A DNA stretch of 64,000 bases, taken from Terebella lapidaria (lineage: Eukaryota; Annelida; Polychaeta; Terebellida; Terebellidae). The notes below the pieces were generated by a model. That model was given only the letters and a program-made list of their open reading frames with translations, did no database searches and was not told where the DNA came from. Shown one piece after another: positions 1,688 to 45,659 of this stretch. The stretch's first letter is position 1. Every line of letters starts with the position of its first letter. Position numbers and translations under genes: made by a program. The DNA lies in NCBI GenBank assembly GCA_949152475.1, contig OX424563.1:25827001-25891000 (forward strand), written 5' to 3'.

Positions 1688-1688
1688 T

Positions 1689-1706
1689 TGGTGCCGTGAC
1701 CAGGAT
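1689..1706 (+). other. Primer-binding site, element A (tRNA-His type)
   Basis: TGGTGCCGTGACCAGGAT starts one base after the LTR. Its complement ends in TCACGGCACCA, the 3' acceptor sequence of animal tRNA-His as I recall it (acceptor GCCGTGA/TCACGGC plus A-CCA). The last six bases depend on the host T-stem and cannot be checked here. Confidence 0.75.
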
Positions 1707-1805
1707 CAGCCCGACGGCGTTCCATCGCAGCCTAAGGTCGCAGTGTCTTGCTCCCTCGTCCCTGGGGACTGTCCGCTCCTCCGGGACACTTTCCGCACGT
1801 GAGAA

Positions 1806-6400: not shown

Positions 6401-8191
6401 TCACCTACGTGCGCGGACCCGCCGGCACTGGCGATGGCTTCCTGCGTTCGAACCGGAGGTGCGGTTCAGCTCCAGCGAGTCTTCCTCGAGTCCAGCAGTG
6501 TACTCCTCGTGGGTACCCTCCGCGTCATCGGACGAGTCTGAGTATAAGCGGTCCTTAACCCCAGTGGTGATGGCCTCTGCGGCACAGTCAGACGTGCCGG
6601 ATGAGGAACCTAACTACTTGGGTGGCTACTCTCCGGCGCAGTTGATTGCGAAGCAGAGAGCTGACAGTGCTCTGGCACCGGTAATCAAAGCCCTTGAGGC
6701 CGGCCAGAAACCTTCAAAGGATGAGAGGAAGACCTACCGGGAGGAGACCCAGTCTCTTATCTCCCAGTGGGAAAGACTCTCCTTGAGGGATGGCCTCTTA
6801 TACCGGCGCTATGAGCCACCGAGACCACTGCCACCCGTTTGGCAGTTGGTGCTTCCGGCGGAGCTGCAGAAAGAAGTGCTCCATCAGTTGCATGACCTCC
6901 GGGTGACCGGTCACTTGGGAATCCGGAGGACCGTCCATAGGCTACAACAGCGCTTTCACTGGCCTGGTAGCAGTTTGGACGTGCAACGATGGTGCGCAGC
7001 CTGCCCTCGGTGTCAAGCTCGTAAAGCAGTTCTGGCTCCTGGCCGCCACCCCTTAACCACGGTTAAGGCTGGCGCGCCGTTTGATCGGGTAGCATTGGAT
7101 ATACTGGATACCCATCGGGTCACCCCACGTGGTTTCCGTTACATCCTGGTGATATCCGACTATTTCACCAAATATACCGATGCGTACCCACTGCGCCGCC
7201 AGACTGCGGCGGAGGTAGCTCGGTTGCTGGTGAATAGGTGGGTGGTGTACCATGGGGTACCTAAGCAGGTACATTCGGATCAGGGCACGCAATTTGAAAG
7301 CAACCTGTTCCGGAGCCTAGCACAGATGCTGGGAAGTACCAAGGTGTGACCACCCCTTACAGGCCCCAGTCGGACGGACAGGTGGAACGCTTTAACCGAT
7401 CTGTCTTTAACATGCTGGCGGCCTTTGTTAATGATCGTGCGAATGATTGGGATGACCACCTCCCGTATGTCTTAATGGCGTACGGGTTGTCGGTTCACTC
7501 TTCGACCGGAGTTACTCCCTACGCGATGTTGTACGGCCGGGAGCTCAATCTGCCCAAGGATATTATGTATCCGACTGCGGCAGAGACCGGCCCAGTACCC
7601 CAGTGCGGTCCGGAGTACGTTGAGTGGGTTCGCCGCGCCCTGGCAAACGCCCATGATTTCGCGCGAGCGCGCCTGGATAAGTCTGCTATCCGGCAGAAGC
7701 GTGGCTATGACGCCCATGCCAAGGGTAGGCCCGCTTTCGCGGAAGGAGACAAGGTGCGGTATTATTATCCACCGCTTAAGCAAGGCAACACGTTTGCTAA
7801 GCCGTGGATAGGCCCGTTTACGGTACTTAAGCAGGTTACGGACGTGGACTACCAGATCTGGAGAGACTCCGACCCCGATAGGGTTCTGGTGGTTCACATA
7901 GACAACCTGAAGAAGTACGAGGGCCCGCTTGTCATGGATCCGCTAGTACAAGATGCGGAACCGGATGATGCTCCTTTATTGGATCCGTGCGGTCAGCACC
8001 CGCGGACTCCGGACGAGCATGTGCGCCGGATGGTGGGTCTCCCGGACCTCTCTGGTCCGTCAGATGACGGTCCGGATGTAGAACCACCATATCTCGGCGA
8101 TCCGCAGGTACCCCCACTCCCTCCACCACCTGCGGATGATGGGCGGCCACGCCGGAAACCTCGTGCGCCGACCCGATATGGGTGGGAGTAA
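3453..8191 (+). pseudogene. pol: Element A pol (PR-RT-RNase H-IN), broken
   Basis: The domains in order are CCHC knuckle, retropepsin (FLVDSGSEITII near 4165), reverse transcriptase with YIDD near 5470, RNase H (DTDAS near 5910), a CxxC-x4-C motif (about 6260), the integrase HHCC finger (about 6890-7020) and the integrase core with SDQG (about 7277) and VERFNR (about 7382). There are two breaks. A TAA at 5367-5369 lies in the conserved RT stretch just before FKVMPFG, a position that normally holds Gln. A frameshift near 7340 puts the end of integrase, from TTPYRPQSDG on, into another frame (7346-8191). The C-terminus ends with a Pro/Asp-rich tail after a GPF-type module. Catalytic residues remain recognisable on both sides of the breaks. 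Confidence 0.92.
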
Positions 8192-10499
8192 CGTTCCGCC
8201 CTTGCGGATGCGTCTGCAGTATCCATCTATCACACCAAGGATGGATTTTAGGTCGTTTAGTGAGGATCCGCACGACTTTCCTCCGTGAGCAGCTACTTTG
8301 TGGCTATCTCCGGAGTTGAGGTCCGCGGACATCTTTGCGTCGTAACGCCGCCGCTCCGCATCCGCCCTCCCGTAGTTTCTAGTGCTAGGAAAGTGCGGCA
8401 ACCTTATCCGCATCAGTTCGACTGCTGTCCGGCGTAGTTAACGCAGCGGCTACGCTGGCCGGACGACTTTTGTGGATGTGCCGTGCGCCCCTGGTCCCGG
8501 GACAACCTCTTATATGGCCAGACTGAGGTTGGGATTTACGTCCGCTACGGGAGAAGCGTCTTCCCACGGATTTGGGGAACTGGCTATGGACGCGGGGTTA
8601 GTGTCCGGATGTGAGGACTGATGTCTGCGGTTCGTCCGCGTGACTCGTCCAGCACTCCGGACGCTTTAAGATGACGCACTTCGGTGTGTTATCCCTCGTG
8701 AGCCACTACTGTAATTAAGTTTATAGTAGGATAAGGTTTCTAGCAGCAGGAAACCGTTAACCATTTTTTTATTTTTAATGGACCGACTGTTAAGTCCGCA
8801 CGTGTCGACCAGCCGCGGCACTGGGGGACGCTCATTCTCGTCCGGATCACCCCTTACAATATGCGGTCCGGCCGTAATAACCAGATCCCAGGCCTCCTTC
8901 TGAGAAGGGGGTCGTATTTTACATGCGCAGCATACTTTGTGGTTTTAATCACTGTCATTATCATTGGATAAGGTCAATATGCCATTTTATGGTACTTGTC
9001 TGGTTCTGGACTCTGTTCGCAGGCAGTTCCGGACGAGCGCCAGCTATTGATTTCATCATGTTTGGGATTCTCTAGATTGGGCCCCGCATCTAATCTATTG
9101 GTTCCGCGCTCCGGTAGTCGTTTGTTTGTCCTCTGGGTTTGACCGGGCTTGCTCCGCGGCCAGGCTGTACGTTGGGGTTGCTAGTGGGCGCGTCATGAAC
9201 GCCCACAGGGCGCCCAATTGTCTGTCCACCTGTCATGGGCTTGTCCGATCGCCCTGCAAGCGTACCAGCGGCTATGGGGAGTGTTTTTGTTTATTTATCC
9301 ATCTCATGTTATTATTTACTTAGTGGATTATTTAAACCACAGGTATGCGGCATGTCTCTGGAGAATTCTGTTCTTGCTCATTTAATGACACAAATGAGAC
9401 AAGTTTGTGAAATTTCCTGTCCGGTGCAATAGAGGGGTGTAAGGAATTGTGTTAATTTTGACAGTGACGGTGTGATGTGAATATTCGAAAAGACTGGAGA
9501 ATGACAATTTATTGTTGTTTTCGTCTGACATATTCGTACCAGCCACAAGTTAGTGGTTACTGTCAATTTTAAGTCAATTTCTACCTTGCGGAAGTGATTA
9601 ACTTTACGTCATTGACCGCCAGTGCGGAAGCGAAAGCTAATGGCTAATGTTAATTACTGTATGTTTTTTGCGAGGTCCCCCGGGATAGAAATGTTCATTT
9701 TCTACCCGTATACACGGTTTGATTTGGAGTCACCGGAGGGAAATGATTGCACCCGCATGAGTTAATAGCGCTTCTATTTTAGTCTGGTTGATGTGTCGTT
9801 ATGACCGGGGACAAAAGTTTTCAGCGACGCCGCGTGCACTGCTGCGCGCGTAGAATAGCTGTCAGCATTTGTTGCATGCTTATATATGTAAAAATGTCGT
9901 ACCCGGATTTATTTTTATAAATCTCCAGATGTTTGGCGCATTATTTTGTGCCACTCGCATTTCGTCCGCTGCTGCGGCGCTGGATCCCGAGGGGTCCGCA
10001 TGGCCGGCGTTTGAGATGCGAGTGTTTGCGCCAGTGATGAATCCCCCGTGCGGGCAGTGTTCAGGTGTGTGGGTGTTCGGGTATCTACCCGGTACATTCA
10101 TTTGTGGATGTCCGTCTATCTGCGCGTCTCTACACTGGCCTGCCCGGGTAGCAGTATACCAATACTGGCAGTCAGCGCGGCTTGCTGCGCTGGCGATGAT
10201 AGCTGTCTGCGACAGCTGTCCGCGTGTGTGTGTATGTCCGCGCGGACTGACCGGAGCTGCTTCGCGCGGCTCCGCCCTACCTCAGACTCGCCCGGCGGGT
10301 CTGAGGCGCCGGCCGGCAGGGCGGCCGGCAACACTTTTTAGAGGTACTACTACTTTTGATCACTCGGTGTGTCCTAGTCTTTTGCGCCGTGACTTCCGAG
10401 TGTTGCCATCTTGCCTTCTTCCGGCCCCCGCCATGCGAAGCCTTCGTCGGGTTTCTGGCATTTTGGGCGCGGGCGGAACATGTTGGGGACCAACATTGT
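8192..10499 (+). other. Element A 3' region between pol and LTR, no recognisable gene
   Basis: This is 2.3 kb of CpG-containing sequence inside element A. Open frames such as 9869-10501 have no domain that I can identify. In element B the equivalent interval holds a 362-codon zinc-finger ORF. No Cys2-His2 pattern or coiled coil can be read here, so this may be decayed or simply untranslated. Confidence 0.6.
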
Positions 10500-10509
10500 A
10501 AGAAGGGGG
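10500..10509 (+). other. Polypurine tract, element A
   Basis: AAGAAGGGGG lies three bases before TGTGGCG (10513), the inferred start of the 3' LTR. It is the expected plus-strand primer for reverse transcription. Confidence 0.65.
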
Positions 10510-10879
10510 TAATGTGGCGATTTTGCCCAACGATCGCGGCAGGTGTCTTTCTTAAACATTCTAGTTTTACGGCCTTTGTTTTGATTGCTTCAGCTCGAAG
10601 CGCGCGTTGTCCCGGCAACGCCCTCTAATCCTCTGACCCACTGTAATCGAACGCTGGCTGTTGATGTCATCTCTCGTGCTCTCGCCTTTAGCATAAATGG
10701 GTGGATATCAAATTGGAGTCGATTTTGGGACTTTTTTTTTTGAAGTTGTTCTTGTTGGAGATTTTTATTCCTATATGGTAGATATATATATTATGACAAA
10801 AAATACACTATTTTGACAACAACCAGGAATGTTTAAAGTGTATATATAGATCCTCAAAGTGGGTAGGGGTGTTGGTAAA

Positions 10880-13489: not shown

Positions 13490-14706
13490 TTCTCGACGTC
13501 ATGGCCACGTCGTCCGCAACAAGTGCACTGCACCCTCGTCTTAGCTGACTTGTTCCGAGGTCGAGTGTGGTTGAGAGCTGGCTGAGGGTCGATCCAGAGA
13601 CGAAACCTTGTCAGTCAGTTTGGACAGATCTGGATCTGTTGGACCTTCTGGGTCACGGCCTTCTTGTCTCTCCGTTCTTGCTCAAGGATCCGCAGTGCCC
13701 GGAAGATGACATCGTATGACTGGCCGGAATCGAAGCGATGACGACTGGCATCCTTCAGCTTCTCGTCGGTGAGTCCCATCCAGAACTGAGTCCGGAGCTT
13801 GCCAGCAACTTCTGACGGGTGGATGGCTCCTCGCTCTTGAAGCTGGCTCAGGATTTCCTCCAGTCGACAGCCCCAAGCGGACACCCTTTCCGAGGGCCTT
13901 TGGGTGGCGCTGTAAAAGGATCCTAGGAGTTGTTCCGGTGGTAGGACGTTGCCAAAGGTGACATCGAACTTCTTCAGGACATCCTGTACTGACACCTGTT
14001 CACCCAGATATCTGAGTACCTCGGCGGCGGTTCCACGGACGGAGCGACGGATTCCAAGAAGTATGGACGAAGCGGTCTTCCCGGAGTTCATCAGGCACTT
14101 GACTTCGTACTTCCACTGGGAGTAGCTGACTTCCCCTTTCGCCTCATCTCCGGAGAAGATTGGACACTTGGTGTACGAAGGATGATCCTCCAACATCCGG
14201 GTAGCCATGGCAACAGGTCCAGGGTCATTGGCAGTCGACAAGTTGGGACTGACGGTTGTGGCAGGCTCAGTCTTGACAGACTCCAACTTGATGGGTTCCG
14301 TCCTCACGGATGATGGGCCAAGTTGACTGATCAGGTCCTGCAGCAGAGTTGGAGACAACAATTTCAGTTGACGAAGTAAGGCCAGGGTTGACTCCTTGTC
14401 ACCAGATGGCTCCTTGGATGGATCCAGGTTCGTGAGAGCTGGTTCGTGTACGGGCTGAGCTGCGATGACCTGTATGGTGTTGTCGGCAAATGCTTCACTT
14501 CCATCATGCTGCCTTACAGCTTTCATCACCGTGCGGCCATCCTGAAATCTGATGAAGGCAGAACCATTGGGTCGACTTGTCAGTGGATCCTGAAGGATGA
14601 AGATCCCGTCCAAGTCCCCATCGGGCTCGAACAAATCCCGAAGATCAGCACGGCTGACAGTGACAGGAAGCCCCGAGACGAGGATGGTCCGCTGATGTAG
14701 AGCCAT
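13444..14706 (-). CDS. RRM-containing PNMA/Gag-like protein of element C
   Basis: The chosen start is ATG 14706 (MALHQRTILVSGLP). An upstream in-frame ATG at 14817 would add a hydrophobic 37-residue leader that looks like translated 5' UTR. Residues about 8-80 form an RRM with RNP2-like ILVSGLP and RNP1-like GSAFIRF. A linker follows, then a Gag capsid-like helical region (about 215-350, around VRGTAAEVLRYLGEQVSVQD) as in PNMA and Ty3/gypsy Gag. TGA at 13617-13615 (context AAC TGA CTG) interrupts the frame. It then continues through a CCHC knuckle (CTCCGRRGHDVEKC) to TAA at 13446-13444. RRM plus Gag is the PNMA layout. The TGA is either a mutation or a read-through codon. The open frames argue for constraint until fairly recently. 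Confidence 0.78.
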
Positions 14707-15318
14707 TGTTGAGCAGACAAAACGTCGAACAACAAAACAGGATGTGCAGCAAAAAAAACCCCAAAATACCAGCTGGAATGTAAACAAGAATACGAGAAGG
14801 AACAAAATATTATTCAATCAGATTCGCTCAATCACAGTCACACAGGTACAGTGGATGTGTAAATACTCACCAATGACCAAGTATCAAAACACATCTAAGT
14901 CTGGAAAATTATTGTCTACCTGTGTACCAATAGATTACCTGGCTGTAATCTAACTCCAAAGGGAATTGAGATCTTTCAAATTATTAACTCATAATACTAA
15001 GTCCATGTAACTCGGGATGGCCAAGAAAAAAAAAATAATTCGAAAACAGAATTTAGTTACAGATGAAATTATTTTCTTAGTATGGGGTGTAAACACCTGA
15101 ATTAACAAAGTTAAATAATTGCTAACCCAAATTAATTCTAACCTAACTATGATGTAAGTGGATACTACACTACAGGGTTATAATAACTTGATAACTTAGC
15201 TAACACTTAATTGATAAAATTACTACTAAATAGATACTAATAATGTAACTATGTTTTATAATAACGAACCCTAAGTATGATTTATAATAATGAACACTAA
15301 TTTAAATATCAAATATTT

Positions 15319-34523: not shown

Positions 34524-34527
34524 CTTA
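34524..34527. repeat. Target-site duplication CTTA, left
   Basis: CTTA precedes the LTR's TGTAAC and recurs at 45487-45490 directly after the other LTR's GTCACA. Confidence 0.85.
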
Positions 34528-35423
34528 TGTAACAAAACCATGCAACTGCCGCGCTGAAACGTTCGTTAGGAACGGTCACGTGATCTACAAAGTCCACTTG
34601 CGAAGACACCGTTCGCGGAAGAACCGTTCGCGGAAGCACGATTGCGGAAGCATCATCAGCGGAAGCATCGTTCGCGGAAGAACCGTTCGCGGAAGCACGA
34701 TTGCGGAAGCATCGTCAGCGGAAGCATCAGTCGCGGAAGCACCGTTCGCGGAAGAGGAGCCTTCGCGGAAGAACCGTTCGCGGACGCAGTCTTCACCACG
34801 TGGAGAAGAGTGCGGAAGATACGTTCGCGGACGAAGATGCGCGCGCAGCCACCCTGGCTATATAAGGGAGAGCGGACGGCCGCTCTGAGAGCACTGCAAC
34901 AGCGACATCGACCGTGGGGAGATCGTCACCGCCACAGCCAAGGGACTCGACGAACTCCGTGCGGACGACTCCTTCTTCAGGGCCTTAGAGTCAACCGGGA
35001 TTTAGACCGACTACCTGGAGAAACCATTCGACTAAGCGGGACGGGAAACTTCAACGGGAAGGGACAGAGAGACGCCGCCGGCTAAGAACTCTTTTTAGTT
35101 GTGCCCTCGTGCACTATTTATTTTTGAAATGTGATCATACAGTGCTCCATGTCTGAACTTCATATTTGTACGTCACGTGGGTGACCAGCCATACAATTGT
35201 AAGTTGATTTGATGTATATAAATCTTCAATTTATTTACATCTGAGTTGCTTCTTGCCTAAGTGAAGCCGGTGAGCTACGGAGTGATGATACACCAGCGTT
35301 GGGGGACACCAATTTAGTGACGGCTCTCGAATCACAACGAGCGGGAGTTACATAAAGTCTATACGATCAGAGAAACCAGGTTTTTTGGGCCACACCGAAA
35401 ACAAGTCATTACCAAACGTCACA
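34528..35423 (+). repeat. Element B 5' LTR
   Basis: It starts TGTAACAAAACC and ends ACGTCACA. U3 contains the GCGGAAG array and a TATA box. The remainder includes a GC-rich leader and AT-rich sequence. Open frames across it (34580-35085) are repeated exactly in the other LTR and are not genes. No canonical AATAAA was seen. Confidence 0.95.
34605..34866 (+). promoter_or_regulatory. LTR promoter: 15-bp GCGGAAG array plus TATA box
   Basis: Twelve GCGGAAG and two GCGGACG cores occur between 34605 and 34835. Most follow a 15-bp rhythm (for example ACCGTTCGCGGAAGA). TATATAAG at 34859-34866 follows, so transcription would begin near 34890. GGAA within CGGAAG is also the core of ETS-family sites, so either a host factor or an element-encoded factor could bind. 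Confidence 0.8.
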
Positions 35424-35426
35424 ACT

Positions 35427-35445
35427 TGGTGCACGTGACCAGGAT
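35427..35445 (+). other. Primer-binding site, element B
   Basis: TGGTGCACGTGACCAGGAT begins three bases after the LTR. It equals element A's site except for one extra A after TGGTGC. The complement fits tRNA-His with a single-base bulge. Confidence 0.65.
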
Positions 35446-35487
35446 CCCCGAGGGTCTACTGCCAGGGAACGAACCTCAGCATCACTC

Positions 35488-38046
35488 ATGTCCGGCGAAA
35501 ACGACGAAACTGCCCCAGGGAAGACAGGAGGTGAAGAGGAAGACTCTTCGCGGACGGCCTCACTTGCGGACGAGGAAGACAGCGGTTCGCGGAAGCCGAC
35601 CTTTGCGGAAGAGGGAGACGACCGTTCGCGGAAGACGTTCGCGGAAGACGACCGTTCGCGGAAGACGTTCGCGGACGACAACCGTTCGCGGAAGACGACC
35701 TTGGCGGAAGAGGCCGACGACCGTTCGCGGAAGACAACGTTCGCGGAAGACGACCGTTCGCGGAAGAGCAGCTTCACAGCCAGGGGTAGACGGGACGTTT
35801 CGACGAGTGAGGAGCAACCAGGGAGGTCGAGACCTTCCATGGGCCAGTCGACTAGTCAACAGAGACCCCGGAGCCAGACACCCGACAACCGTTTTATTTT
35901 CAGACACGCTTCTGGGTGGCAGCACGATCGAGACAGGGAGAGGTCAACCTACCTTGAGAGCGTTAGGAGGGGCCCCGAGTTCCGACGAGTGCTGGGACCG
36001 GAGTACGTCAATCTGGACGGGGAGGACGGCGAAATCTGGGCGAGGAGGGATCGGCTACAGCTACCGGAGCAGAGTCCAAGTGTGGCACCTCCAGAGAATG
36101 CAGCATTGAGACGGCTTTGGGACCAGTCCCAGCAGCAGTCTGGTGCAACAGAGCAGCAGTCTGGTGCAACAGGGCAGCGGTCGGGTGTGACGAGTCGACA
36201 AACGGGAGTGACTGGAGGACGGGTTACTTGGGCTCCGACCCAAGAGAGCAGCTCGAGAGGGAGAGGACTTTTCGCGGAAGAGAACATTCGCGGACGAGAG
36301 GCATTCTTCGGCGACAGGGACGCTTGCAGCCGGGGATCCTTCGTGGATGAACGGGCTCGTGGGCGAGGGGGAGTCTTTGGTGACGAGGACGCTTGTGACC
36401 GGGGAGGGCCCTTCGCGGACGACCACGTTCGCGGACGAGGACGACTCGCGGAAGAGAGTGTTCGCGGAAGAGAGGAGTCTTCACCCAGACGGCGGCTCGA
36501 CGAAAGGAGTGATCCAGGCGACCAATCTTCCTTTCCAGTTTTTCAGAATAGACGGGGAAGACCATTCGCGGATGAGCCGGTTCGCGGAAGACTCGCGGAA
36601 GATGGCGTTCGCGGACGTGCATCTTTTGTGGAGGGACGTCTCCGAGACATCTTGGCGGACGAGCCCGTTCGCGGAAGACTCGCGGAAGACGGCGTTCGCG
36701 GAAGAGGCCTGTTCGCGGAAGAACTTCTTCGGGAGCTGTTGGCGGAAGAGTCCGTTCGCGGAAGGTTCGCGGAAGACAGTGTTCGCGGAGGGTTCGCGGA
36801 AGACAGCGTTCGCGGAAGAGGGAGGTCTTCACCCAGTCGACAACCGAGACAGCCAGCCTCCTGGAGAAATCCAGCTTCTATTTCAGTCACCCAGGGAGGC
36901 CGGAGACAGCACCCTTTCTCATCATCGGGCGATGAGGGGCCTTCATCTGATGGAGGGACCGACAGCAGCCATGGTTACCCAGGACGGGGGAGGAGACCAC
37001 CGAGGCGGGGACCGCCGCTGCACCGACGAAGCCCTAGGCCGAGACGGAGGCAGGAGGACTCGTCGTCCGAGGACAGCACAGTCTGGAATCAGAACGGCAG
37101 AAGGAACCGGAAGATGCTGACCCCTGACAAGTTCGATGGGACTTCCATAGAGTGGCCGGTGTACCGGGCCCACTTTGACGTCATCGCAGAGGTCAACGGA
37201 TGGAGCAAGCGGGAACAGGGCGTCTACTTAGCCGGGAGCTTGACAGGAGAGGCGCGACGAATGCTGACCAGCCTGAGTCCTGCAGACCGGAGGGACATCG
37301 ACGTTCTGACCGACAAGCTGACCCTACGATTCGACCCTGACTGTCAGGAGGAGTCCTACAAGGCGACCTTGGGACAAAGAACCCGCAGGAAGGCAGAGAC
37401 ACCCCAGCAGTACGGCTATGAGTTGCAGCGACTGGCCGGCCGTGGTTATCCGGATCTGAACTCCGCAGCTCAGGAGGCTATCGCCTTAGACCACTTCTGG
37501 AAGGGCCATCCAGATGGGGACATGAAGGTGATGGCGCTCATGAGGAAGATGAAGACCATGGAGGAGGCCATAGCGTTCGTGACCCAGTACGAATGTGTCA
37601 AACCCAAGCCTGGGAAGCCGGTGATGTCCATAGAGTCGGAGGACTCCGAGCCAGCTCTAGGACGGGTCCTACAGCTGTTGAAGAACCAGCAGGGAGGCGA
37701 GATTACCACCAGTGGGCAGCAGAGCAACCAGCCGAACGTAGCGGGTCTACCCAGACTTCCCTACTTCAAGGGGCTCTTTGAGAGCCAAGACAGGAAGCTG
37801 GATCGACTAATCGAGCTGTGTGAGCAGGTGCTATCCATCAAGCCGAGGGCCGCCACTGCTGAGAACAAGGGACCAAGCGCTAGGCCGGGACCAGATGACT
37901 GTTGGTACTGTGGGAAGCCGGGTCATCGGAAGTACCAGTGTCCAGATCGGCCACCACCTCGGACCAAGGAGGAGCGCTTGAGTCGACTAATCGAGGAGAT
38001 TGGTGAGCGGAACAGTTTGACAGACGAGGTGTCGGAAAACCAGTAG
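35488..38046 (+). CDS. gag: Element B Gag
   Basis: The start is ATG 35488 (MSGENDETAPGK), 64 bases after the LTR. Residues about 15-100 and 255-450 are low-complexity repeats (DDRSRKTFAED, then RGR/FAEE/VRGR types) encoded by GTTCGCGGAAGA units. Residues about 540-700 form the capsid-type Gag domain (FDGTSIEWPVYRAHFDVIAE onward). Near 804 is the CCHC knuckle CWYCGKPGHRKYQC. Gag would assemble the particle and bind the RNA. The Arg/Ser-rich N-terminus is unusually long for Ty3/gypsy. It ends in TAG 38044-38046. The pol frame is open from 38007, giving a 40-base overlap in the -1 frame. No perfect slippery heptamer is present (closest is GGAAAAC just before the stop). Confidence 0.94.
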   Translation: MSGENDETAPGKTGGEEEDSSRTASLADEEDSGSRKPTFAEEGDDRSRKTFAEDDRSRKTFADDNRSRKTTLAEEADDRSRKTTFAEDDRSRKSSFTARGRRDVSTSEEQPGRSRPSMGQSTSQQRPRSQTPDNRFIFRHASGWQHDRDRERSTYLESVRRGPEFRRVLGPEYVNLDGEDGEIWARRDRLQLPEQSPSVAPPENAALRRLWDQSQQQSGATEQQSGATGQRSGVTSRQTGVTGGRVTWAPTQESSSRGRGLFAEENIRGREAFFGDRDACSRGSFVDERARGRGGVFGDEDACDRGGPFADDHVRGRGRLAEESVRGREESSPRRRLDERSDPGDQSSFPVFQNRRGRPFADEPVRGRLAEDGVRGRASFVEGRLRDILADEPVRGRLAEDGVRGRGLFAEELLRELLAEESVRGRFAEDSVRGGFAEDSVRGRGRSSPSRQPRQPASWRNPASISVTQGGRRQHPFSSSGDEGPSSDGGTDSSHGYPGRGRRPPRRGPPLHRRSPRPRRRQEDSSSEDSTVWNQNGRRNRKMLTPDKFDGTSIEWPVYRAHFDVIAEVNGWSKREQGVYLAGSLTGEARRMLTSLSPADRRDIDVLTDKLTLRFDPDCQEESYKATLGQRTRRKAETPQQYGYELQRLAGRGYPDLNSAAQEAIALDHFWKGHPDGDMKVMALMRKMKTMEEAIAFVTQYECVKPKPGKPVMSIESEDSEPALGRVLQLLKNQQGGEITTSGQQSNQPNVAGLPRLPYFKGLFESQDRKLDRLIELCEQVLSIKPRAATAENKGPSARPGPDDCWYCGKPGHRKYQCPDRPPPRTKEERLSRLIEEIGERNSLTDEVSENQ
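35546..36820 (+). repeat. GCGGAAG motif array inside gag
   Basis: More than 25 GCGGAAG/GCGGACG cores lie in two clusters (35546-35770, 36270-36820). The 12-mer GTTCGCGGAAGA is open in every forward frame and gives VRGR, (R)SRK or FAE(D/E). All three outputs occur in Gag, showing that units have expanded without keeping one frame. Confidence 0.85.
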
Positions 38047-38069
38047 GGCTCATACCAGCCCCCAACCGT

Positions 38070-41000
38070 ATGGGCCATTGGCAGGTGTGTGCACGGCTTC
38101 ACAGGCGAGAAGCTCGACGAAGACGTGAAGAACACATTGCCAGGGGGGAATTTTTAGTTTCACAGATTTTTAATAGGTTTTTCCGGTGTGCATCCGAAGT
38201 AACTGGATGGGCGCAGGAGGAGCTCGAGGATCGAATTCTCGACTATTTGGAGGGCAAGCCTGTCAACACAGACGGGAGTGCCAATGTACAGCAAACCGAT
38301 GGAGCCGTGGAGCGTCTAATGCCCCGCGGAGACGTCAAGGAAATGCAGACCGATGGAGCCGTGGAGCGTCTAATGACCCGCGGAGACGTCGACGAAATGC
38401 AGACCGATGGAGCCGTGGAGCGTCTGGGGACCCACGGAGACATCAACGAGGTTTCTGCTAGCAGCAAGGAGAACCAACAGGTTACAACCTTGAGGCTGGA
38501 GGCTGCGAAACAGCAGGGACCCCCCTATGCAACTGAACCACAAGCGGCCGTGAAAGAGGAGACGGAGGGCCGGTGGAGCGGAATGACCAAGGGGCCAGCG
38601 CAGCAGCTATTGCTGGTGGACGACTCATTACTTATCCGGAGCGGCGGTTCCGAGGGGAGTGATTCCCTTAAGACTGACAGAGAGGACCAGGGTGGTGCAT
38701 CACTGTGGGTGGACGACTCAGTACTTATCCAGGGCGGCGTCCCTGAGGAGAGTGGCAGCTCTCTTAAGATTGACAGAAATGGCCAGGTGGTGTCGCTGTC
38801 AGCCGGTGCCCGAGGCACATTGGCGTGGTATGCGGCGTGCCACGTTATGGGGAAGGCGACTCGTATGTTGGTGGACACGGGTGCCTCTTCCACCGTTCTG
38901 GACGAGTGTCTCTTCGACCAAATGGATGACGAACATAAAGCAATGATAAGGCAGACGAGAATAAGGTTACGGGCAGCAACCGGAGACTACTTACAGGTTC
39001 AAGGAGAGATGACAGTTCAACTTCTACTGGGCACACGACTCGTGTCGGCAGATGTACTGGTAGCCAAACTAGGGATCCCGGGAGTGTTGGGGCTTGATGT
39101 ACTTCAACAGATTGGGGGACAGCTGGATCTGCGTAAGGGCGAGTGGCAGGTGGGCGACACTACCGTAGTGATGAGCTCGGGCCACGAGGGCGCCGTCTAC
39201 ACACTGGTGACGGAGGAGACGGTCGTCTTGCCACCCTTTTCAGAGATGATGGTGGACCTCAAGCTGACAGGAAGTGAGGGAGGAGTTCCGAAGGCCGGCC
39301 TCGTGCAGTCCGCAAGAGAGCCGTTGGAGGACGACCCCCTCGTAGTGGGACGAGCCCTGGTACGACCCCGAGGACGCCTGGTACCGGTGGTACTTCTGAA
39401 CGCCGGCGCTGGAGCTTGCACTGTGCTGATGGGGACCATCCTAGCCGAGCTTCACGGAATAGAGGCCGTGATCGACCTGGGATTTCGTCCCGATGGAGGG
39501 AAAACAACCCAGAATGAACCTAAAAGGGAACAGTGGTACCGGGAGGAGAGCGGGAGGGAGCATGAGCCCCTTACACCAAACTCCACCAAGTGGCGGAACC
39601 GGACGCCTGAGCAGCCCGAAACCAGAGTGCACGCCATGCACGCAGAATCGTCGACGAAGACACCAGAGTGCCCGGAGCATTTAGAACCGCTCCTGGAGGG
39701 AATGCATCCGAACTTGACGGAAAAGGAGGTGGAGGTCGTCAGCGATCTCCTTCGACGCCACCAGCAGGTCTTTATGGGACCAGATGGGAGGTTGGGCCGG
39801 ACGTCCCTGGCGAAACACGTCATCGACACGGGAGATCACCCCCCGATCAAGCAGCCTCTGAGGAGAGCCCCGTACTACCAACAAGAGCTGATCGAGGACG
39901 AGGTCGACAAGATGTTGAAAGCTGACGTTGTGGAGCCAAGTGACAGTCCATGGTCGTCTCCCATCGTGCTAGTGAAAAAGAAGGATGGTGCACTGAGATT
40001 TTGCGTCGACTACCGCCGTCTAAATGATGTCACCCGGAAGGATGCGTACCCCCTGCCTCGAGTCGACGAGAGTTTTGATACCTTGTCAGGAGGACGATAT
40101 TTTTCGACGCTAGACTTGGCTAGTGGTTACTGGCAGGTCGAGATGGACGACAGGGACAAGGAGAAGACGGCGTTCACTACCCGTAGTGGACTCTATCAAT
40201 TTAAAGTGATGCCGTTTGGATTGGCGACGGCCCCGGCTACTTTTGAACGTCTAATGGAGCTGGCACTGAGGGGACTCCAATGGAAGCGTTGTCTAATTTA
40301 TTTGGACGATGTCGTCTGTCTTGGAAAGACTTTCCAAGAAGCCGTGGACAACCTCGAGGACGTGTTCCGGAGACTGCAGGCTGCCGGGCTGAAGCTGAAA
40401 CCCGCCAAGTGTGAGCTGTTTCGACAACAGGTCAACTTCCTGGGCCATGTCGTGTCCGACCGAGGCATCCAGTGCGACCCTGCCAAGGTCGAAGCTGTAA
40501 CAAAAATGGTTCCTCCGACCACCTTGACAGAACTAAGGAGCTTCCTTGGGTTCGTGGGGTACTACCGCAGATTCATCCCTGACTTTGCCACCCGAGCGGG
40601 ACCCCTCAACCACCTGTTAAAGAAGGAAGTCAACTACCATTGGAGCGAGGCTCATCAGCAGGCGTTCGAGGCGCTGCGTCAACCCCTGACCGAGCACCCC
40701 CTGCTGGTGTACCCTGACATGGACCAAGAATTTATTTTAGATACTGATGCTAGCGGCTACGGAGTGGGAGGCGTCTTATCCCAAGTGCAGGACGGACGAG
40801 AGCGGGTGATCGCCTATGCTTCCAGAACCCTGAGGGACACCCAGCGGAATTACTGCACCACCAAGCGGGAGCTCCTGGCCGTCGTCAGTATGATACACCA
40901 TTTCAGACATTTCTTGTGGGGGAGAGCGTTCTTACTACGAACCGACCACGCCTCTCTCAAGTGGCTACTGAACTTTCGGGATGCGGAAGGAATGATCGCT

Positions 41001-43142
41001 AGATGGGCAGCTCGCATCGCCAGCTACGCCTTCAGGTGTGAGGTCCGACCGGGAGTACAACACGGGAATGCAGACGGGATGTCCAGATGCCGACAGTGCC
41101 GGAGACCGGATTGTCCCGCCCCTCGCCACACCACAAGACCCGAAGGAGAAGAGGAGGCCTGTCCGACTCAGGAGGAGTGTCCCCTACCCCTGGAGGACCT
41201 CTCTGACGAGGATCTGCTTCCACCGATCAGCGGAGAAGGATGGAGCCCCGGAGGACCTCAAGTTAACATCTTGCGGGAGGTCCCTGTGGAGCCCTGGACG
41301 GAGGACTACTATTGCGGAGATGGAGTCGGGATATTCCAGATCTGGGAGGTGCGCTGCCAGGAGGACCCGAGGACGACTACCCAGCCGACCGAGGAATGCC
41401 TGCCTGACCGGAGCCCCCCACAGACGGAGGAAGGAGCCAGGAGCGTCTGCAGAACCCTGCATCAGCTCCGCCCCTCTGCCTGGGTTTGGTTTCTCCTGAT
41501 GATGCTCCTCGCACTGCATGGTTTGGGACCGGAGGTTGTGGCCGGAGCAGCGATCGGCGCGACGGCCGACGTGTGGATGCGCTGCCGAGAGGAGCCCTTC
41601 CTGGACCCATGCCCCAACCCTGTGCTCCGAGATCCAGACAAACAAATGCTAGCTGTCACGCGGGCTATGGCTACGGGAGGACGCCGGAATCCGATGGAGG
41701 GAGCCCCGGAGGCCCAGGTCCTGAATGGTTATTCCCAGGAGGACCTAGTGACCCTTCAACGAGCCGACCCTGAAGTTGGAGGCATCCTCGGGTGGAAGAA
41801 TATTTTCACTGAGAGACCTGCATGGCCCGAAGTCAGAACAAAAAGTCAGCAAATGAAGACTCTGTGGCAACAGTGGGACCAGCTGGAGCTACGTGATGGG
41901 CTTCTGTACCGGCGGTACCAAGCGGCTTGCCAGAACGCACCAATCCATCAACTGGTCGTTCCACAGGTCCTGAGACGCGCCGTCATGAAGGAGGTCCACA
42001 CCGGCAAGCTGATGAGCCACCAGGGAATCACCAAAACAGTCCACCGACTAAAAGCGAGAATGTACTGGCCGGGTATGACGAAGGACGTGGAGCGTTGGTG
42101 CCGGGAGTGCCTGAAGTGTAGTGGGAGAAAGCCGCGACCGGGGCCCAAGTACCACCCCATGGGAAATCTACCGGTAGGCGATCGGCTAGAAAGGGTGGCC
42201 ATGGACATTTTGGAGCCTGGAACGATCACCAATTCTGGGAACCGGTATATACTGGTCGTGGGTGATTATTTCACCAAGTGGACTGAGGCCTACGCTCTAC
42301 CCAACCATGAGGCTCAGACGGTGGCGGACGTCTTTGTGACTGAGTTCGTGTGCCGCCTGGGAATGCCAGCCAAGATACACACCGACCAGGGACGAGAGTT
42401 CGAGAGTAAGCTTTTCCTTGAGATGATCAAGATCCTAGGAGGGGAGAAGACTCGGACGACCCCTTATCACGCCAAATCAGACGGGATGGTCGAGCGATTC
42501 AACCGGACCCTGCTGAACCTTCTGGCCGTGGTCGTGGACGAGAACCATGACGACTGGGACGACCATCTGCCCTACGTGATGGCGACTTATAGAACATCAG
42601 TACACGAAAGCACCGGGTGTACACCATTTCGAATGATGATGGGACGGGAGGCAACCACCCCATTGGACCTGAGGTACCGGACGAAACCGGACGATTTGGG
42701 AGGACCAGTCCCCGAGTGTGCGTCCGAATACGTCGAATGGGTGAAGGAAGCCACCATACAAGCTCACGAGACTGCCCGAGAGTGCCTGAAGACGGCTACG
42801 GTGCGACAAAAGCGCCATCATGACATAAAATCAGCCGCTCGACATTTTCCGGTGGGCACCTGGGTGATGTATTGGTACCCTCCAAAGGCTAGACCAAAAC
42901 TAGGACTAGGGTGGACGGGACCTTATCTCGTTGTGAAGTCTCATCTCGGATGGATGGTGTCCATACAAGATCGACCCGGTGGCAAGATTAAAGATGTCCA
43001 CATTGACAATATAAAAAGGTGCTGGTTCACCCCTGAAACCGACGCCTGGATACCCAATCCGGACGATGTGACCCCAGTCCGGACCCCCAGTGATGACGAG
43101 GGACGAGTGGAAAACAGCGGGAATGCAGTCCAAACGATGTAA
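38070..43142 (+). CDS. pol: Element B Pol (PR-RT-RNase H-IN)
   Basis: 1,690 codons, uninterrupted. ATG 38070 is the first in frame, 23 bases after gag's stop. The frame is open from 38007, so a -1 frameshift fusion is equally possible. Order: N-terminal acidic region with three 18-residue repeats, retropepsin (LVDTGASSTVL, about 267), RT (catalytic YLDD about 742), RNase H (DTDAS about 890), CRQCRRPDC finger-like motif, a Pro-rich tether with a hydrophobic segment (WVWFLLMMLLALHGLG, about 1137), integrase HHCC finger (about 1310-1350), DDE core (MDI, HTDQG about 1437, VERFNR) and a C-terminal GPY module (about 1615). There is no chromodomain. The enzymes copy the RNA to DNA and integrate it. 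All catalytic residues are present. Confidence 0.95.
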   Translation: MGHWQVCARLHRREARRRREEHIARGEFLVSQIFNRFFRCASEVTGWAQEELEDRILDYLEGKPVNTDGSANVQQTDGAVERLMPRGDVKEMQTDGAVERLMTRGDVDEMQTDGAVERLGTHGDINEVSASSKENQQVTTLRLEAAKQQGPPYATEPQAAVKEETEGRWSGMTKGPAQQLLLVDDSLLIRSGGSEGSDSLKTDREDQGGASLWVDDSVLIQGGVPEESGSSLKIDRNGQVVSLSAGARGTLAWYAACHVMGKATRMLVDTGASSTVLDECLFDQMDDEHKAMIRQTRIRLRAATGDYLQVQGEMTVQLLLGTRLVSADVLVAKLGIPGVLGLDVLQQIGGQLDLRKGEWQVGDTTVVMSSGHEGAVYTLVTEETVVLPPFSEMMVDLKLTGSEGGVPKAGLVQSAREPLEDDPLVVGRALVRPRGRLVPVVLLNAGAGACTVLMGTILAELHGIEAVIDLGFRPDGGKTTQNEPKREQWYREESGREHEPLTPNSTKWRNRTPEQPETRVHAMHAESSTKTPECPEHLEPLLEGMHPNLTEKEVEVVSDLLRRHQQVFMGPDGRLGRTSLAKHVIDTGDHPPIKQPLRRAPYYQQELIEDEVDKMLKADVVEPSDSPWSSPIVLVKKKDGALRFCVDYRRLNDVTRKDAYPLPRVDESFDTLSGGRYFSTLDLASGYWQVEMDDRDKEKTAFTTRSGLYQFKVMPFGLATAPATFERLMELALRGLQWKRCLIYLDDVVCLGKTFQEAVDNLEDVFRRLQAAGLKLKPAKCELFRQQVNFLGHVVSDRGIQCDPAKVEAVTKMVPPTTLTELRSFLGFVGYYRRFIPDFATRAGPLNHLLKKEVNYHWSEAHQQAFEALRQPLTEHPLLVYPDMDQEFILDTDASGYGVGGVLSQVQDGRERVIAYASRTLRDTQRNYCTTKRELLAVVSMIHHFRHFLWGRAFLLRTDHASLKWLLNFRDAEGMIARWAARIASYAFRCEVRPGVQHGNADGMSRCRQCRRPDCPAPRHTTRPEGEEEACPTQEECPLPLEDLSDEDLLPPISGEGWSPGGPQVNILREVPVEPWTEDYYCGDGVGIFQIWEVRCQEDPRTTTQPTEECLPDRSPPQTEEGARSVCRTLHQLRPSAWVWFLLMMLLALHGLGPEVVAGAAIGATADVWMRCREEPFLDPCPNPVLRDPDKQMLAVTRAMATGGRRNPMEGAPEAQVLNGYSQEDLVTLQRADPEVGGILGWKNIFTERPAWPEVRTKSQQMKTLWQQWDQLELRDGLLYRRYQAACQNAPIHQLVVPQVLRRAVMKEVHTGKLMSHQGITKTVHRLKARMYWPGMTKDVERWCRECLKCSGRKPRPGPKYHPMGNLPVGDRLERVAMDILEPGTITNSGNRYILVVGDYFTKWTEAYALPNHEAQTVADVFVTEFVCRLGMPAKIHTDQGREFESKLFLEMIKILGGEKTRTTPYHAKSDGMVERFNRTLLNLLAVVVDENHDDWDDHLPYVMATYRTSVHESTGCTPFRMMMGREATTPLDLRYRTKPDDLGGPVPECASEYVEWVKEATIQAHETARECLKTATVRQKRHHDIKSAARHFPVGTWVMYWYPPKARPKLGLGWTGPYLVVKSHLGWMVSIQDRPGGKIKDVHIDNIKRCWFTPETDAWIPNPDDVTPVRTPSDDEGRVENSGNAVQTM
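38292..38453 (+). repeat. Three 54-bp tandem repeats in pol
   Basis: Units 38292-38345, 38346-38399 and 38400-38453 each encode the 18-residue pattern QTDGAVERL(M/G)xRGD(V/I)xE. They lie upstream of the protease in a region with no recognisable domain. Confidence 0.9.
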
Positions 43143-43151
43143 ACGATGACG

Positions 43152-43347
43152 GGAGCGTTCGCGGAAGAACCGTTCGCGGAAGCAGCGTTCGCGGAAGCAG
43201 CGTTCGCGGAAGTACCGTTCGCGGAAGCACGTTCGCGGAAGCAGCGTTCGCGGAAGAACCGTTCGCGGAAGCAAGCGAAAAACGTTATTTCGTTCCACGA
43301 CAATGCTTTTTCCCCCAGATCCCTGGTCCGCGCCTTTTCTATATAAG
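43152..43347 (+). promoter_or_regulatory. Internal promoter of element B's third ORF
   Basis: Eight copies of GTTCGCGGAAG, spaced 15 bp (one 14), run from 43155 to 43271, just after pol's stop. TATATAAG follows at 43340-43347, and ORF3's ATG is at 43382, so the predicted start site near 43370 gives a very short leader. The motif and its order relative to the TATA box copy the LTR promoter. Confidence 0.75.
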
Positions 43348-43381
43348 CAGGCCGGCCTACGATTCCGTCATCACTTCAACC

Positions 43382-44470
43382 ATGAACACACCAACTCTGC
43401 AGATCATTGAGATACCCGCATTTGCAGACGAAGATTTCGGGGACGTTCCAGATTTCGACTTGGCTGACTTTCTGCCCCTTGAAGTCGACAAGATGAGCGA
43501 CCCACCTACCAAGCCTGACCGGAAGCGGGAGCGCTCGAGGAGCCGGGAGCGTCGTGAGGAGCCCCGAGGAGGTCGACGGTCCCCTGCCCGGAAGTTGTCC
43601 ACCGAGAGAGGGCGACGCTGGTGCAGCCCCTGCCGGATCCACGTGACGGCATCCAACTTTAGCCGACACGTGGCGACCAAACACACGCAGAAGGAGGGGC
43701 GGCACCTCTGCAAGATGTGCAGCCAGCGATTCGCCCGCCGAGCTGACAGAGACCGGCATGAGACGTCGCATGCCAGCGGCAACACCCTCAAGCCAGGACG
43801 GAGGAGGACGACGACCGACACGCCCGTGTCCGACCCCCGAGATGGTCCGACTACTGTGTCTGCCCCTGAGCTGAAGACTGTCAGCTTTGCGGCCAGCGGG
43901 ACGACCAGCTCCACGCCGTCAAGCCCCCGGGAGGACGCCCCCAGGTCAGAGGACGCCCCAGACCCCGAGGACGACCCCCCGAATAGCGAAGAGGAACCGG
44001 AGTCTCAGCAGGAGCGGAGAGAGGCGGAATCCCCGGAGGCCCCCACCCCCGAGGACGACGGACCCCCCGTTCCCAGAGACTCGGCCCCTACCTACAAGCC
44101 CCTAGACCTGAGTTGGTACCTCAAGCCCGTTCCGGAGGAGGAGGACCAACTGCGACCGTATGTGGAGGGCCTGGGCAGAGCGGTCACTGCCGGAGAGAAG
44201 GCCCTGGAGGACCTGGCATCCACGATAGCCATGGGACGACGCCACCTCACCCAAGCGGAGGCTCGGCTCCAAGCCAAGGAGGAGCAGAGACAGCTCGAGG
44301 CCGAGGTGCTGCAGCTGCGAGGGGAGGCCTCTCAACGAGAGAAGAGCCACCGGAAGGAGCTGCGAGCCCACGTCCGAGAGACCAAGCTGCTCCGGGAACA
44401 GCTCCGAGCATATACAGACACTCGAGACAGGCTGGCGGAGACGTCCGAAAGCGAGGTGGATCGCCAGTGA
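43382..44470 (+). CDS. Element B ORF3: C2H2 zinc-finger, coiled-coil protein
   Basis: 362 codons in the position where some gypsy elements carry env, but no signal peptide or membrane segment is present. Residues 1-45 are acidic and hydrophobic (DFGDVPDFDLADFLPLEVD), like an activation domain. Residues 46-75 are Arg/Ser-rich. Two C2H2 fingers follow: CSPCRIHVTASNFSRHVATKH (C-x2-C-x11-H-x4-H, near 80) and CKMCSQRFARRADRDRHETSH (C-x2-C-x12-H-x3-H, near 110). A Pro/Glu-rich linker precedes a long coiled coil (about 265-355). This is the build of a dimeric DNA-binding protein. A role as regulator of the element's own GCGGAAG arrays is inference. RNA binding or integration targeting are alternatives. 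Confidence 0.85.
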   Translation: MNTPTLQIIEIPAFADEDFGDVPDFDLADFLPLEVDKMSDPPTKPDRKRERSRSRERREEPRGGRRSPARKLSTERGRRWCSPCRIHVTASNFSRHVATKHTQKEGRHLCKMCSQRFARRADRDRHETSHASGNTLKPGRRRTTTDTPVSDPRDGPTTVSAPELKTVSFAASGTTSSTPSSPREDAPRSEDAPDPEDDPPNSEEEPESQQERREAESPEAPTPEDDGPPVPRDSAPTYKPLDLSWYLKPVPEEEDQLRPYVEGLGRAVTAGEKALEDLASTIAMGRRHLTQAEARLQAKEEQRQLEAEVLQLRGEASQREKSHRKELRAHVRETKLLREQLRAYTDTRDRLAETSESEVDRQ

Positions 44471-44576
44471 AGTGGAGGGAGAGAGCCCTGTAAACATCAG
44501 ACAGGCAGGAAAAGACGAAGAAGGAGGAAGAAGAGAAAAGAAGAGAGAGAAAGGATCAACGGGGACGTTGATCTCC

Positions 44577-44589
44577 AGAAAGGGTGGAG
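44577..44589 (+). other. Polypurine tract, element B
   Basis: AGAAAGGGTGGAG lies one base before the 3' LTR's TGTAAC. Confidence 0.8.
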
Positions 44590-44590
44590 T

Positions 44591-45486
44591 TGTAACAAAA
44601 CCATGCAACTGCCGCGCTGAAACGTTCGTTAGGAACGGTCACGTGATCTACAAAGTCCACTTGCGAAGACACCGTTCGCGGAAGAACCGTTCGCGGAAGC
44701 ACGATTGCGGAAGCATCATCAGCGGAAGCATCGTTCGCGGAAGAACCGTTCGCGGAAGCACGATTGCGGAAGCATCGTCAGCGGAAGCATCAGTCGCGGA
44801 AGCACCGTTCGCGGAAGAGGAGCCTTCGCGGAAGAACCGTTCGCGGACGCAGTCTTCACCACGTGGAGAAGAGTGCGGAAGATACGTTCGCGGACGAAGA
44901 TGCGCGCGCAGCCACCCTGGCTATATAAGGGAGAGCGGACGGCCGCTCTGAGAGCACTGCAACAGCGACATCGACCGTGGGGAGATCGTCACCGCCACAG
45001 CCAAGGGACTCGACGAACTCCGTGCGGACGACTCCTTCTTCAGGGCCTTAGAGTCAACCGGGATTTAGACCGACTACCTGGAGAAACCATTCGACTAAGC
45101 GGGACGGGAAACTTCAACGGGAAGGGACAGAGAGACGCCGCCGGCTAAGAACTCTTTTTAGTTGTGCCCTCGTGCACTATTTATTTTTGAAATGTGATCA
45201 TACAGTGCTCCATGTCTGAACTTCATATTTGTACGTCACGTGGGTGACCAGCCATACAATTGTAAGTTGATTTGATGTATATAAATCTTCAATTTATTTA
45301 CATCTGAGTTGCTTCTTGCCTAAGTGAAGCCGGTGAGCTACGGAGTGATGATACACCAGCGTTGGGGGACACCAATTTAGTGACGGCTCTCGAATCACAA
45401 CGAGCGGGAGTTACATAAAGTCTATACGATCAGAGAAACCAGGTTTTTTGGGCCACACCGAAAACAAGTCATTACCAAACGTCACA
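44591..45486 (+). repeat. Element B 3' LTR
   Basis: 896 bp, the same length as the 5' LTR. I saw no difference in the stretches compared. It carries the same motif array and TATA box, and CTTA follows at 45487-45490. Confidence 0.95.
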
Positions 45487-45659
45487 CTTAGTTTCAAAAC
45501 AACTTTTTCCACCAAAATTGCCGTATTGACCTTCAAGTTACGTTCACCATTGAAACTGCGAAATCTCCTTTCACATTTGATACTACCAATATTCAAGCTC
45601 TATCTTGAAGTGTTCCAGGAGGTTCCTTCATGCAGCTCCCATTACGAAGGACGAATAGG

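Follow-up and report, generated by a model that had tools for sequence, protein, structure and literature searches.

A Ty3/Gypsy element of Terebella lapidaria encodes a zinc-finger protein whose predicted binding site matches the element's own motif arrays

The locus and its elements

The window, by which is meant the whole stretch of 64,000 nucleotides that was analysed, contains a Ty3/Gypsy element (element B, 34528 to 45486) in which a third open reading frame, ORF3, is placed between pol and the polypurine tract. Its assignment follows from a pair of long terminal repeats (LTRs) that are 100% identical and end in TG...CA, a 4-bp target-site duplication (CTTA, at 34524 to 34527 and at 45487 to 45490), a polypurine tract, a primer binding site-like stretch, and the order of the pol domains (protease, reverse transcriptase (RT), RNase H, integrase). 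Both gag and pol are open. The features of the element are listed below; the primer binding site-like stretch, the splice-acceptor-like tract, the TATA box and the polypurine tract are assigned from sequence alone, and the pol domains from domain matches.

34528 to 35423, + strand: 5′ LTR, 896 bp, an exact match to the 3′ LTR
34611 to 34833, + strand: U3 array of 14 GCGGA(A/C)G sites, upstream of TATATAAG at 34859
35427 to 35440, + strand: primer binding site-like TGGTGCACGTGACC, 3 nt past the 5′ LTR
35488 to 38046, + strand: gag ORF, 852 aa, with a CCHC knuckle (E = 0.0019, slightly under the Pfam cut-off)
35550 to 36818, + strand: motif cluster within gag coding DNA, 34 GCGGA cores
38070 to 43142, + strand: pol ORF, 1690 aa, with protease, RT, RNase H and integrase
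43157 to 43271, + strand: pre-ORF3 array, eight GTTCGCGGAAG units (exact matches)
43306 to 43318, + strand: splice-acceptor-like CTTTTTCCCCCAG (sequence pattern), a rival expression route
43339 to 43347, + strand: TATA box CTATATAAG, putative internal promoter
43382 to 44470, + strand: ORF3, 362 codons, with an acidic N-terminus, an Arg/Ser-rich basic region, two C2H2 fingers and a C-terminal heptad region
43622 to 43684, + strand: finger 1 (residues 81-101), with T, N, R at -7/-4/-1 from the first zinc His, predicted to read GAN
43709 to 43771, + strand: finger 2 (residues 110-130), with R, D, R at -7/-4/-1, predicted to read GCG
44575 to 44590, + strand: polypurine tract CCAGAAAGGGTGGAGT
44591 to 45486, + strand: 3′ LTR, with the same array (U3 cores 44678 to 44894) and TATATAAG at 44922

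A second, related Gypsy copy in the window (element A, 1600 to 10700) has an RT 53% identical to that of B and a pol that is split over several ORFs; no ORF3-like ORF follows its pol, and the only enriched word found in it, TCCGGAC, is weak. On the minus strand, an ORF of 400 aa with an RRM and a PNMA domain (13615 to 14817) is possibly a gag-derived host gene.

The ORF3 protein

An earlier note on this DNA had described the ORF3 product as a protein with an acidic N-terminus, a basic RS region, two C2H2 fingers and a long coiled coil, and with no envelope features. Most of this description is borne out by the ORF3 sequence and by a Pfam scan: the acidic N-terminus and the Arg/Ser-rich stretch are seen in the sequence, no envelope family is matched in Pfam, and the protein does not class as an env-like glycoprotein. 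The coiled coil holds in part, as there is a heptad-like C-terminal stretch, but its pattern is only moderate (6 of 8 a/d positions are hydrophobic). ORF3 of B is a C2H2 protein with two complete fingers that carry base-specifying contact residues, finger 1 being one residue short (11 residues between the second Cys and the first His, the usual number being 12), and the three zinc-finger matches in Pfam are weak, the best of them (E = 0.011) falling under the cut-off.

When public proteins were searched with ORF3, a single relative was returned, the near-identical P0003. This protein sits on an ENA contig of 1,767 nt, approximately the length of an RNA running from the putative internal promoter into the 3′ LTR.

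Motif arrays of the element

Directly before ORF3, GTTCGCGGAAG starts at 43157, 43172, 43187, 43202, 43217, 43231, 43246 and 43261, that is, with a 15-bp period and a single 14-bp step. In addition to these eight copies, five are found in each LTR and 17 in gag, all of them on the sense strand. Against a baseline of 300 dinucleotide shuffles, GCGGA(A/C)G is strongly enriched in three parts of the element: U3 (14 sites, 0.25 expected), the stretch before ORF3 (8 sites, 0.16 expected) and the first 1.36 kb of gag (32 sites, 1.07 expected), which makes the 5′ half of gag a third motif cluster. In the remaining gag (0 sites), in pol (2 sites) and in ORF3 (0 sites) the counts stay at background level, and the minus strand holds no site in any counted part of element B. 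When one LTR, gag, pol and the pre-ORF3 stretch are counted, 45 of the 58 sites carry GGAA and the other 13 are GCGGACG. Because the gag cores fall in all three reading frames (17, 10 and 7 in frames 0, 1 and 2), what is repeated in gag is a DNA word and not a peptide. The N-terminal part of gag (35550 to 36818) is largely made of this word, the coding region apparently serving as a binding-site array.

The TATA sequence before ORF3, TATATAAG, starts at 43340, and the same CTATATAAG is found in both LTRs (34859 and 44922), so that the U3 array and the pre-ORF3 array each precede it. The layout that had been claimed for the element, namely eight 15-bp repeats, a TATA box and a 362-codon ORF after pol, together with an LTR promoter carrying the same motif array upstream of the same TATA sequence, was therefore recovered, with one of the repeat steps measuring 14 bp.

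Copies in the genome and constraint on ORF3

A two-unit pattern of the array gave 1,992 + 2,057 matches in the 761.6 Mb of genome that were searched, against 0 for a reversed control. Since the pattern matches ten times in the copy in the window, roughly up to 400 copies may be present. ORF3 is full length and without stops in all 113 copies that were scored, which are the best 113 of 1,718 candidates, taken best-first and thus biased towards good protein matches. To lessen this bias, ten copies were picked by their arrays instead: among the contig 1 matches listed, ten copies carry the pre-ORF3 array, and in each of them ORF3 is open, with 362 or 365 aa. The earlier note had named an ORF3 absent or disrupted in all other copies as the finding that would count against it; this is not what the genome holds.

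Six other stretches came from the contig 1 matches listed. Three are 5′ parts of copies already counted, two (L053 and L054) show an LTR only, and one (L052) is a derivative without pol, the internal promoter and the first 28 codons of ORF3. This derivative (C1:13855000-13860000) keeps both LTRs, the gag array and a 5′-truncated ORF3 joined to gag, and its gag frame reaches a stop without reading ORF3.

A comparison of 40 copies gave 27 distinct ORF3 substitutions, of which 12 are nonsynonymous and 15 are synonymous; those common to at least two copies number 0 and 8, respectively, where a ratio of 2.69:1 is expected, 30 of the 40 copies being best protein matches and hence biased against amino-acid change. 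Within the ten copies that were not picked by protein match, all seven shared substitutions are synonymous. The B family is very young and numerous, the 113 scored copies (best of 1,718) being near-identical and the LTRs of the copy in the window identical, and it may therefore be active now.

Related families in the same genome

Using P0041, a pol relative from public data, as query, two further families were found in the same genome, C (L055) and D (L056), and ORF3 of C as query led to family E (L058, and L057 with a stop in ORF3). Looking for ORF3 in related elements, which had been proposed as a check, thus gave a positive answer, as it is present in all three families. Another locus, L059 (C17:12632754), was first taken as a relative and was dropped as an ordinary host multi-finger gene.

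Family C has an ORF3 of 370 aa, LTRs that are 99.9% identical over 1,067 bp, and a 21-bp direct repeat of 8.4 units in U3; no motif cluster was found in its gag. In family D, ORF3 measures 334 aa when the Met of MSKERH, the second ATG in frame, is taken as its start, the LTRs are 99.7% identical over 1,344 bp, and the array before ORF3 consists of inverted CTCCGCAGTGCGGAG units. The LTR of D holds 19 + 17 GCGGA, about equally on both strands, and its gag nine minus-strand sites within 172 bp (a plain count, without a shuffle baseline). Both families follow the plan of B, in that ORF3 is preceded by an array whose word recurs in the LTRs; the array designs differ, and in B and C the sites are confined to one strand. 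The ORF3 of family E is homologous, but no array was found in its pre-ORF3 stretch or in the part of its LTR that was examined.

The similarity between the ORF3 proteins lies mainly in the fingers (36% for C and E, 37% for D and E, 33% for D and P0039, 30% for B and P0039), and C and E are also alike in their C-terminal part (27%, E = 2.6e-8). Direct comparison of the ORF3 of B with that of C is not significant (E = 0.33) and no match between B and D was listed, and B is therefore tied to the other families only via P0039, a public protein of 2,469 aa in which a related pol (67% in RT) is read straight into a finger protein. In a script scan of the 120 pol relatives listed, P0039 was the only one with such a pair of fingers following pol; no relatives were returned from public proteins with part of P0039 as query, and none of the viral contigs matched six peptide patterns drawn from pol. 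The N-terminus is clearly acidic in B, C and D and more weakly so in E. In the first three, the sequence ahead of the fingers includes a short N-terminal segment that is both acidic and hydrophobic, and by a simple count a heptad-like C-terminal stretch is present in all four families.

Two observations concern the end of pol. At the place of the array of B, P0041 and P0050, pol relatives from other sources, end in repeats of 5 or 6 residues, which correspond to 15 or 18 bp. A polypurine-like AGAAAGGGTGGA, translated as RKGG or KKGG, is found repeatedly where pol ends or beyond that point, namely before ORF3 in L055 and in the tails of P0041, P0044 and P0050, and is possibly a second polypurine tract.

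Finger residues and the arrayed word

In the C2H2 code as given in the part of PMC12264921 used here, the 5′ base is specified by the residue at -1 from the first zinc His, the middle base by that at -4 and the 3′ base by that at -7, with Arg, Lys and His specifying G, Asn and Gln specifying A, Asp specifying C, and small residues being non-specifying. The same part describes a TFIIIA finger with Lys, Asn and Thr that reads G-A, the Thr being out of reach, and states that a Tyr at -5 can keep a short side chain such as Asp off the base (PMC12264921). Finger 1 of B (Arg, Asn, Thr) shows the same pattern as this TFIIIA finger, and both fingers of family C carry Tyr at -5. In B, D, E and P0039, finger 1 has 11 and not 12 residues between Cys and His, so that numbering from the His may not hold exactly.

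Under the strict code, finger 2 followed by finger 1 is predicted to read GCG-GAN in B and D, NCG-GNG in C and NCG-GNA in E. Words were scored on both strands of the pre-ORF3 stretch and U3 (for E, the pre-ORF3 stretch and the part of the LTR examined). The predicted word scored 23 in B (2.8 in shuffled sequence), 16 in D (1.5), 22 in C (6.0) and 10 in E (6.2), ranking first of 1024 in B and in D, second of 256 in C (first by the smaller of two regions) and 96th of 256 in E; any word of a tandem array ranks high, and the ranks therefore overstate the surprise. GCGGA is absent from the regulatory DNA of C, and NCGGNG is depleted in B (2 vs 9.2) and raised in D (16 vs 5.3), the latter because GCGGAG fits NCGGNG too. 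In family C, (A/T)CGGTG occurs three times before ORF3 and nine times in U3. The base facing Ala in the 13 GGTGCC-anchored units of C is T, T, C and T before ORF3 and A in all nine units of U3, and in a single unit of the 13 the position facing Asp holds T and not C. P0039 shares five of the six code positions (GCGGA), and its AEGP repeats are encodable by GCGGAAGG; it misfits at one point, as its Asp at -7 should read C and the AEG repeats imply A or G.

For B, C and D the code was applied with their motifs already known, and E is the sole blind case. Its prediction, NCGGTA, fixed before its DNA was viewed, was not supported (rank 96 of 256 by the strict code); E has no array. Because B and D share their specifying residues, a real change is seen in one contrast, that of C with B and D. 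The co-variation of finger residues and repeat motif that the earlier note had suggested looking for is thus found in part: the fingers and the motif of C both differ from those of B and D and the predicted words rank high, but the prediction for E failed. More specifically, protein and arrayed motif appear to differ together between families in this one contrast, which B, D and C fit and E does not. That the element encodes a regulator with matching sites, as had been proposed, is partly supported, the predicted finger site being the core of its own arrays, and self-recognition, as a prediction from sequence, is well supported.

Thirteen D-like relatives (L060-L072), drawn from 91 matches, were examined, and seven of these (L060-L065 and L070) keep all six specifying finger residues, although stops interrupt the fingers of L062 and L065. 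The count of GCGGA in the 600-bp upstream stretch is 5-12 in six of the seven (shuffle means 1.0-1.7), that of L064 only equalling its shuffle maximum, and zero in L061. Where contacts are altered or missing (L066-L069, L071 and L072), L071 has 4 and the others 0-2. Since array and fingers both decay with age, these relatives are not independent evidence. The older C-like relatives L073 and L074 have no CGGTGCC in the 600 bp upstream. In older arrays of the D lineage (L065, L068 and L069), GCAGA/GTGGA-type words stand where D has GCGGA, a change that germ-line CpG methylation of the arrays would be expected to leave.

Expression of ORF3

Ahead of ORF3, the same CRE-like ATGACGTCATGACGT is found letter for letter in families C and D, where it precedes a TATA-like box at a distance of about 10 bp in C and 61 bp in D, and family E has three TGACGT in this place. 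ATGACGTCATGACGT is not found in B, where, as in C (by eye) and D, a TATA-like box precedes ORF3, and no TGACGTCA was found in the examined LTR stretches of the four families. The region before ORF3 in these families resembles a basal internal promoter under the control of a host factor, presumably CREB/ATF. The sharing of ATGACGTCATGACGT and a TATA-like box by C and D, with no TGACGTCA in the LTR stretches, helps the reading that ORF3 has an internal promoter of its own; for B, we infer promoter activity and feedback.

Alternatively, ORF3 could be expressed by splicing of the LTR transcript, in the way of env and the accessory genes of retroviruses, and the TATA before it could be a non-working promoter. 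The good splice-acceptor-like CTTTTTCCCCCAG directly ahead of the TATA box makes a spliced mRNA possible in B, but neither the same pattern nor a looser one found such a tract before ORF3 of C, D or E. Also speaking against splicing, which we consider unlikely, are the TATA-like boxes of B, C and D, the presence of TGACGT elements in C, D and E, and the way in which the pre-ORF3 array and TATA of B copy the design of the LTR.

A probable self-recognising regulator

ORF3 is probably an element-encoded, self-recognising DNA-binding regulator, whose predicted GCG-GAN site is the core of the 15-bp repeats in U3, before ORF3 and in gag. Beneath this reading lie the anatomy of the element, the arrays, the intactness of ORF3 and the constraint on it, the match of predicted site and array in B, C and D (three of four families), and the difference in C. 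Binding itself, the direction of its effect (activation or anti-silencing) and the use of the promoters would combine as follows. Low basal transcription from the internal promoter would supply ORF3 protein, which would bind en masse to its family's motif arrays, located by motif density and helped by its C-terminal coiled coil; its acidic N-terminus would then activate or un-silence the internal and LTR promoters. Such a scheme would amount to a feed-forward loop, as with foamy-virus Tas, in which motif density guides the protein, as with Arabidopsis VANC.

The protein could also bind its arrays as a repressor, for copy-number control, or as an insulator, in the manner of the host protein Su(Hw) on Drosophila gypsy. 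Dense same-strand arrays would be shown by an insulator too, the arrays lie upstream of both promoters, and the present results are compatible with activation or repression. Yet the short N-terminal segments of B, C and D (weaker in E) are acidic and hydrophobic, as is typical of acidic activation domains, and a very young and numerous family with an intact ORF3 does not point to a brake; a repressing or insulating role is, if anything, slightly less likely than the spliced transcript.

It is quite improbable that the arrays are ordinary tandem repeats, or sites for host transcription factors, with no relation to ORF3. Slippage does expand tandem repeats, and one-strand arrays such as those of B and C would be expected from simple repeat expansion as well as from a function in RNA. 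However, the arrays are built differently (15-bp direct in B, 21-bp direct in C, inverted CTCCGCAGTGCGGAG in D), and each holds the word predicted for the fingers of its own family. As for host factors, CGGAAG resembles what we take to be the ETS core, and GGAA is present in 45 of the 58 sites counted in B; ETS sites need GGA(A/T), however, which the 13 GCGGACG sites lack. Very improbable, finally, is binding to the motif in genomic RNA, with a role in its packaging, nuclear export or translation. RNA is a possible ligand of C2H2 fingers, and all 58 sites counted in B outside the 3′ LTR are sense-strand, 32 of them in gag, but arrays stand upstream of TATA boxes in U3 and before ORF3, GCGGA in the LTR of D is about equally frequent on both strands (19 and 17), and the DNA-contact residues fit the DNA code in B, C and D.

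Returning to ORF3 as a self-recognising regulator, we lean slightly towards a wider view, in which a diverse lineage of Ty3/Gypsy elements in animals has, where env would stand, a zinc-finger gene that can be re-targeted and whose product marks the DNA of the element itself. Every family with arrays would pair a finger code of its own with its own promoter arrays (in B and D also with arrays in gag), so that separate circuits of self-activation or anti-silencing, with a specificity readable from sequence, would be possible. As the recognition domain is the best-understood DNA-reading fold, the co-evolution of regulator and target should be predictable residue by base and directly testable. The B family would offer a test, in animals, of whether transposons defeat silencing by encoding sequence-specific factors of their own.

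Comparison with known systems

In searches of open-access full text, with subscription papers outside their scope, none of the papers listed reports in its title or the start of its abstract a C2H2 ORF with matched arrays in a Gypsy element. Additional ORFs, such as gene23 of Grande, are described for plant Ty3/Gypsy elements in the part of PMC7264820 used here; gene23 is antisense and no target motif is named for it there, whereas ORF3 is sense and has a matched predicted target. LTR retrotransposons of bdelloid rotifers, like element B, are animal elements with an extra ORF after pol (PMC5408684). Their non-env ORF3s are enzyme-like (DEDDy, GDSL), unlike the C2H2 ORF3 described here, and zinc, transcription factor and DNA-binding were looked for in the text of PMC5408684 and not found.

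Foamy viruses and plant VANDALs already provide examples of element-encoded regulators with matched arrays, and Tas and VANC are the closest known designs. To our knowledge, Tas has no C2H2 fingers. VANDALs are Mutator-like DNA transposons of plants, unlike B, which is a Ty3/Gypsy element and not a Mutator-like host. ORF3 would work like Tas and VANC in the sense of a likeness of design, and membership of either family is not implied.

Tas (Bel-1) of foamy viruses is a DNA-binding activator made from an internal promoter near the 3′ end; it acts on this promoter and on that of the LTR, which gives positive feedback, and its sites in the two promoters have 'little sequence relatedness' (PMC7390438, in the part used here). 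ORF3, too, lies near the 3′ end; a putative second promoter precedes it (array and TATA box in B, CRE-like element and TATA-like box in C and D), and its predicted word is present at both promoters in B, C and D. Unlike the Tas sites, the two promoters of B carry the same word, and unlike in foamy viruses, which have env, ORF3 occupies the env place.

VANC of Arabidopsis VANDAL elements binds a short motif that is dense and in one orientation in the element's own non-coding DNA, and protein and motif evolve together between families via turnover of tandem repeats (PMC5735166, in the part used here). Similarly, element B encodes a protein whose predicted site is arrayed densely and in one orientation in its own DNA. 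It differs in that the motif is also found in the coding DNA of gag, and in that the word is predicted by the finger residues of ORF3, no C2H2 code being described for VANC in that part of PMC5735166.
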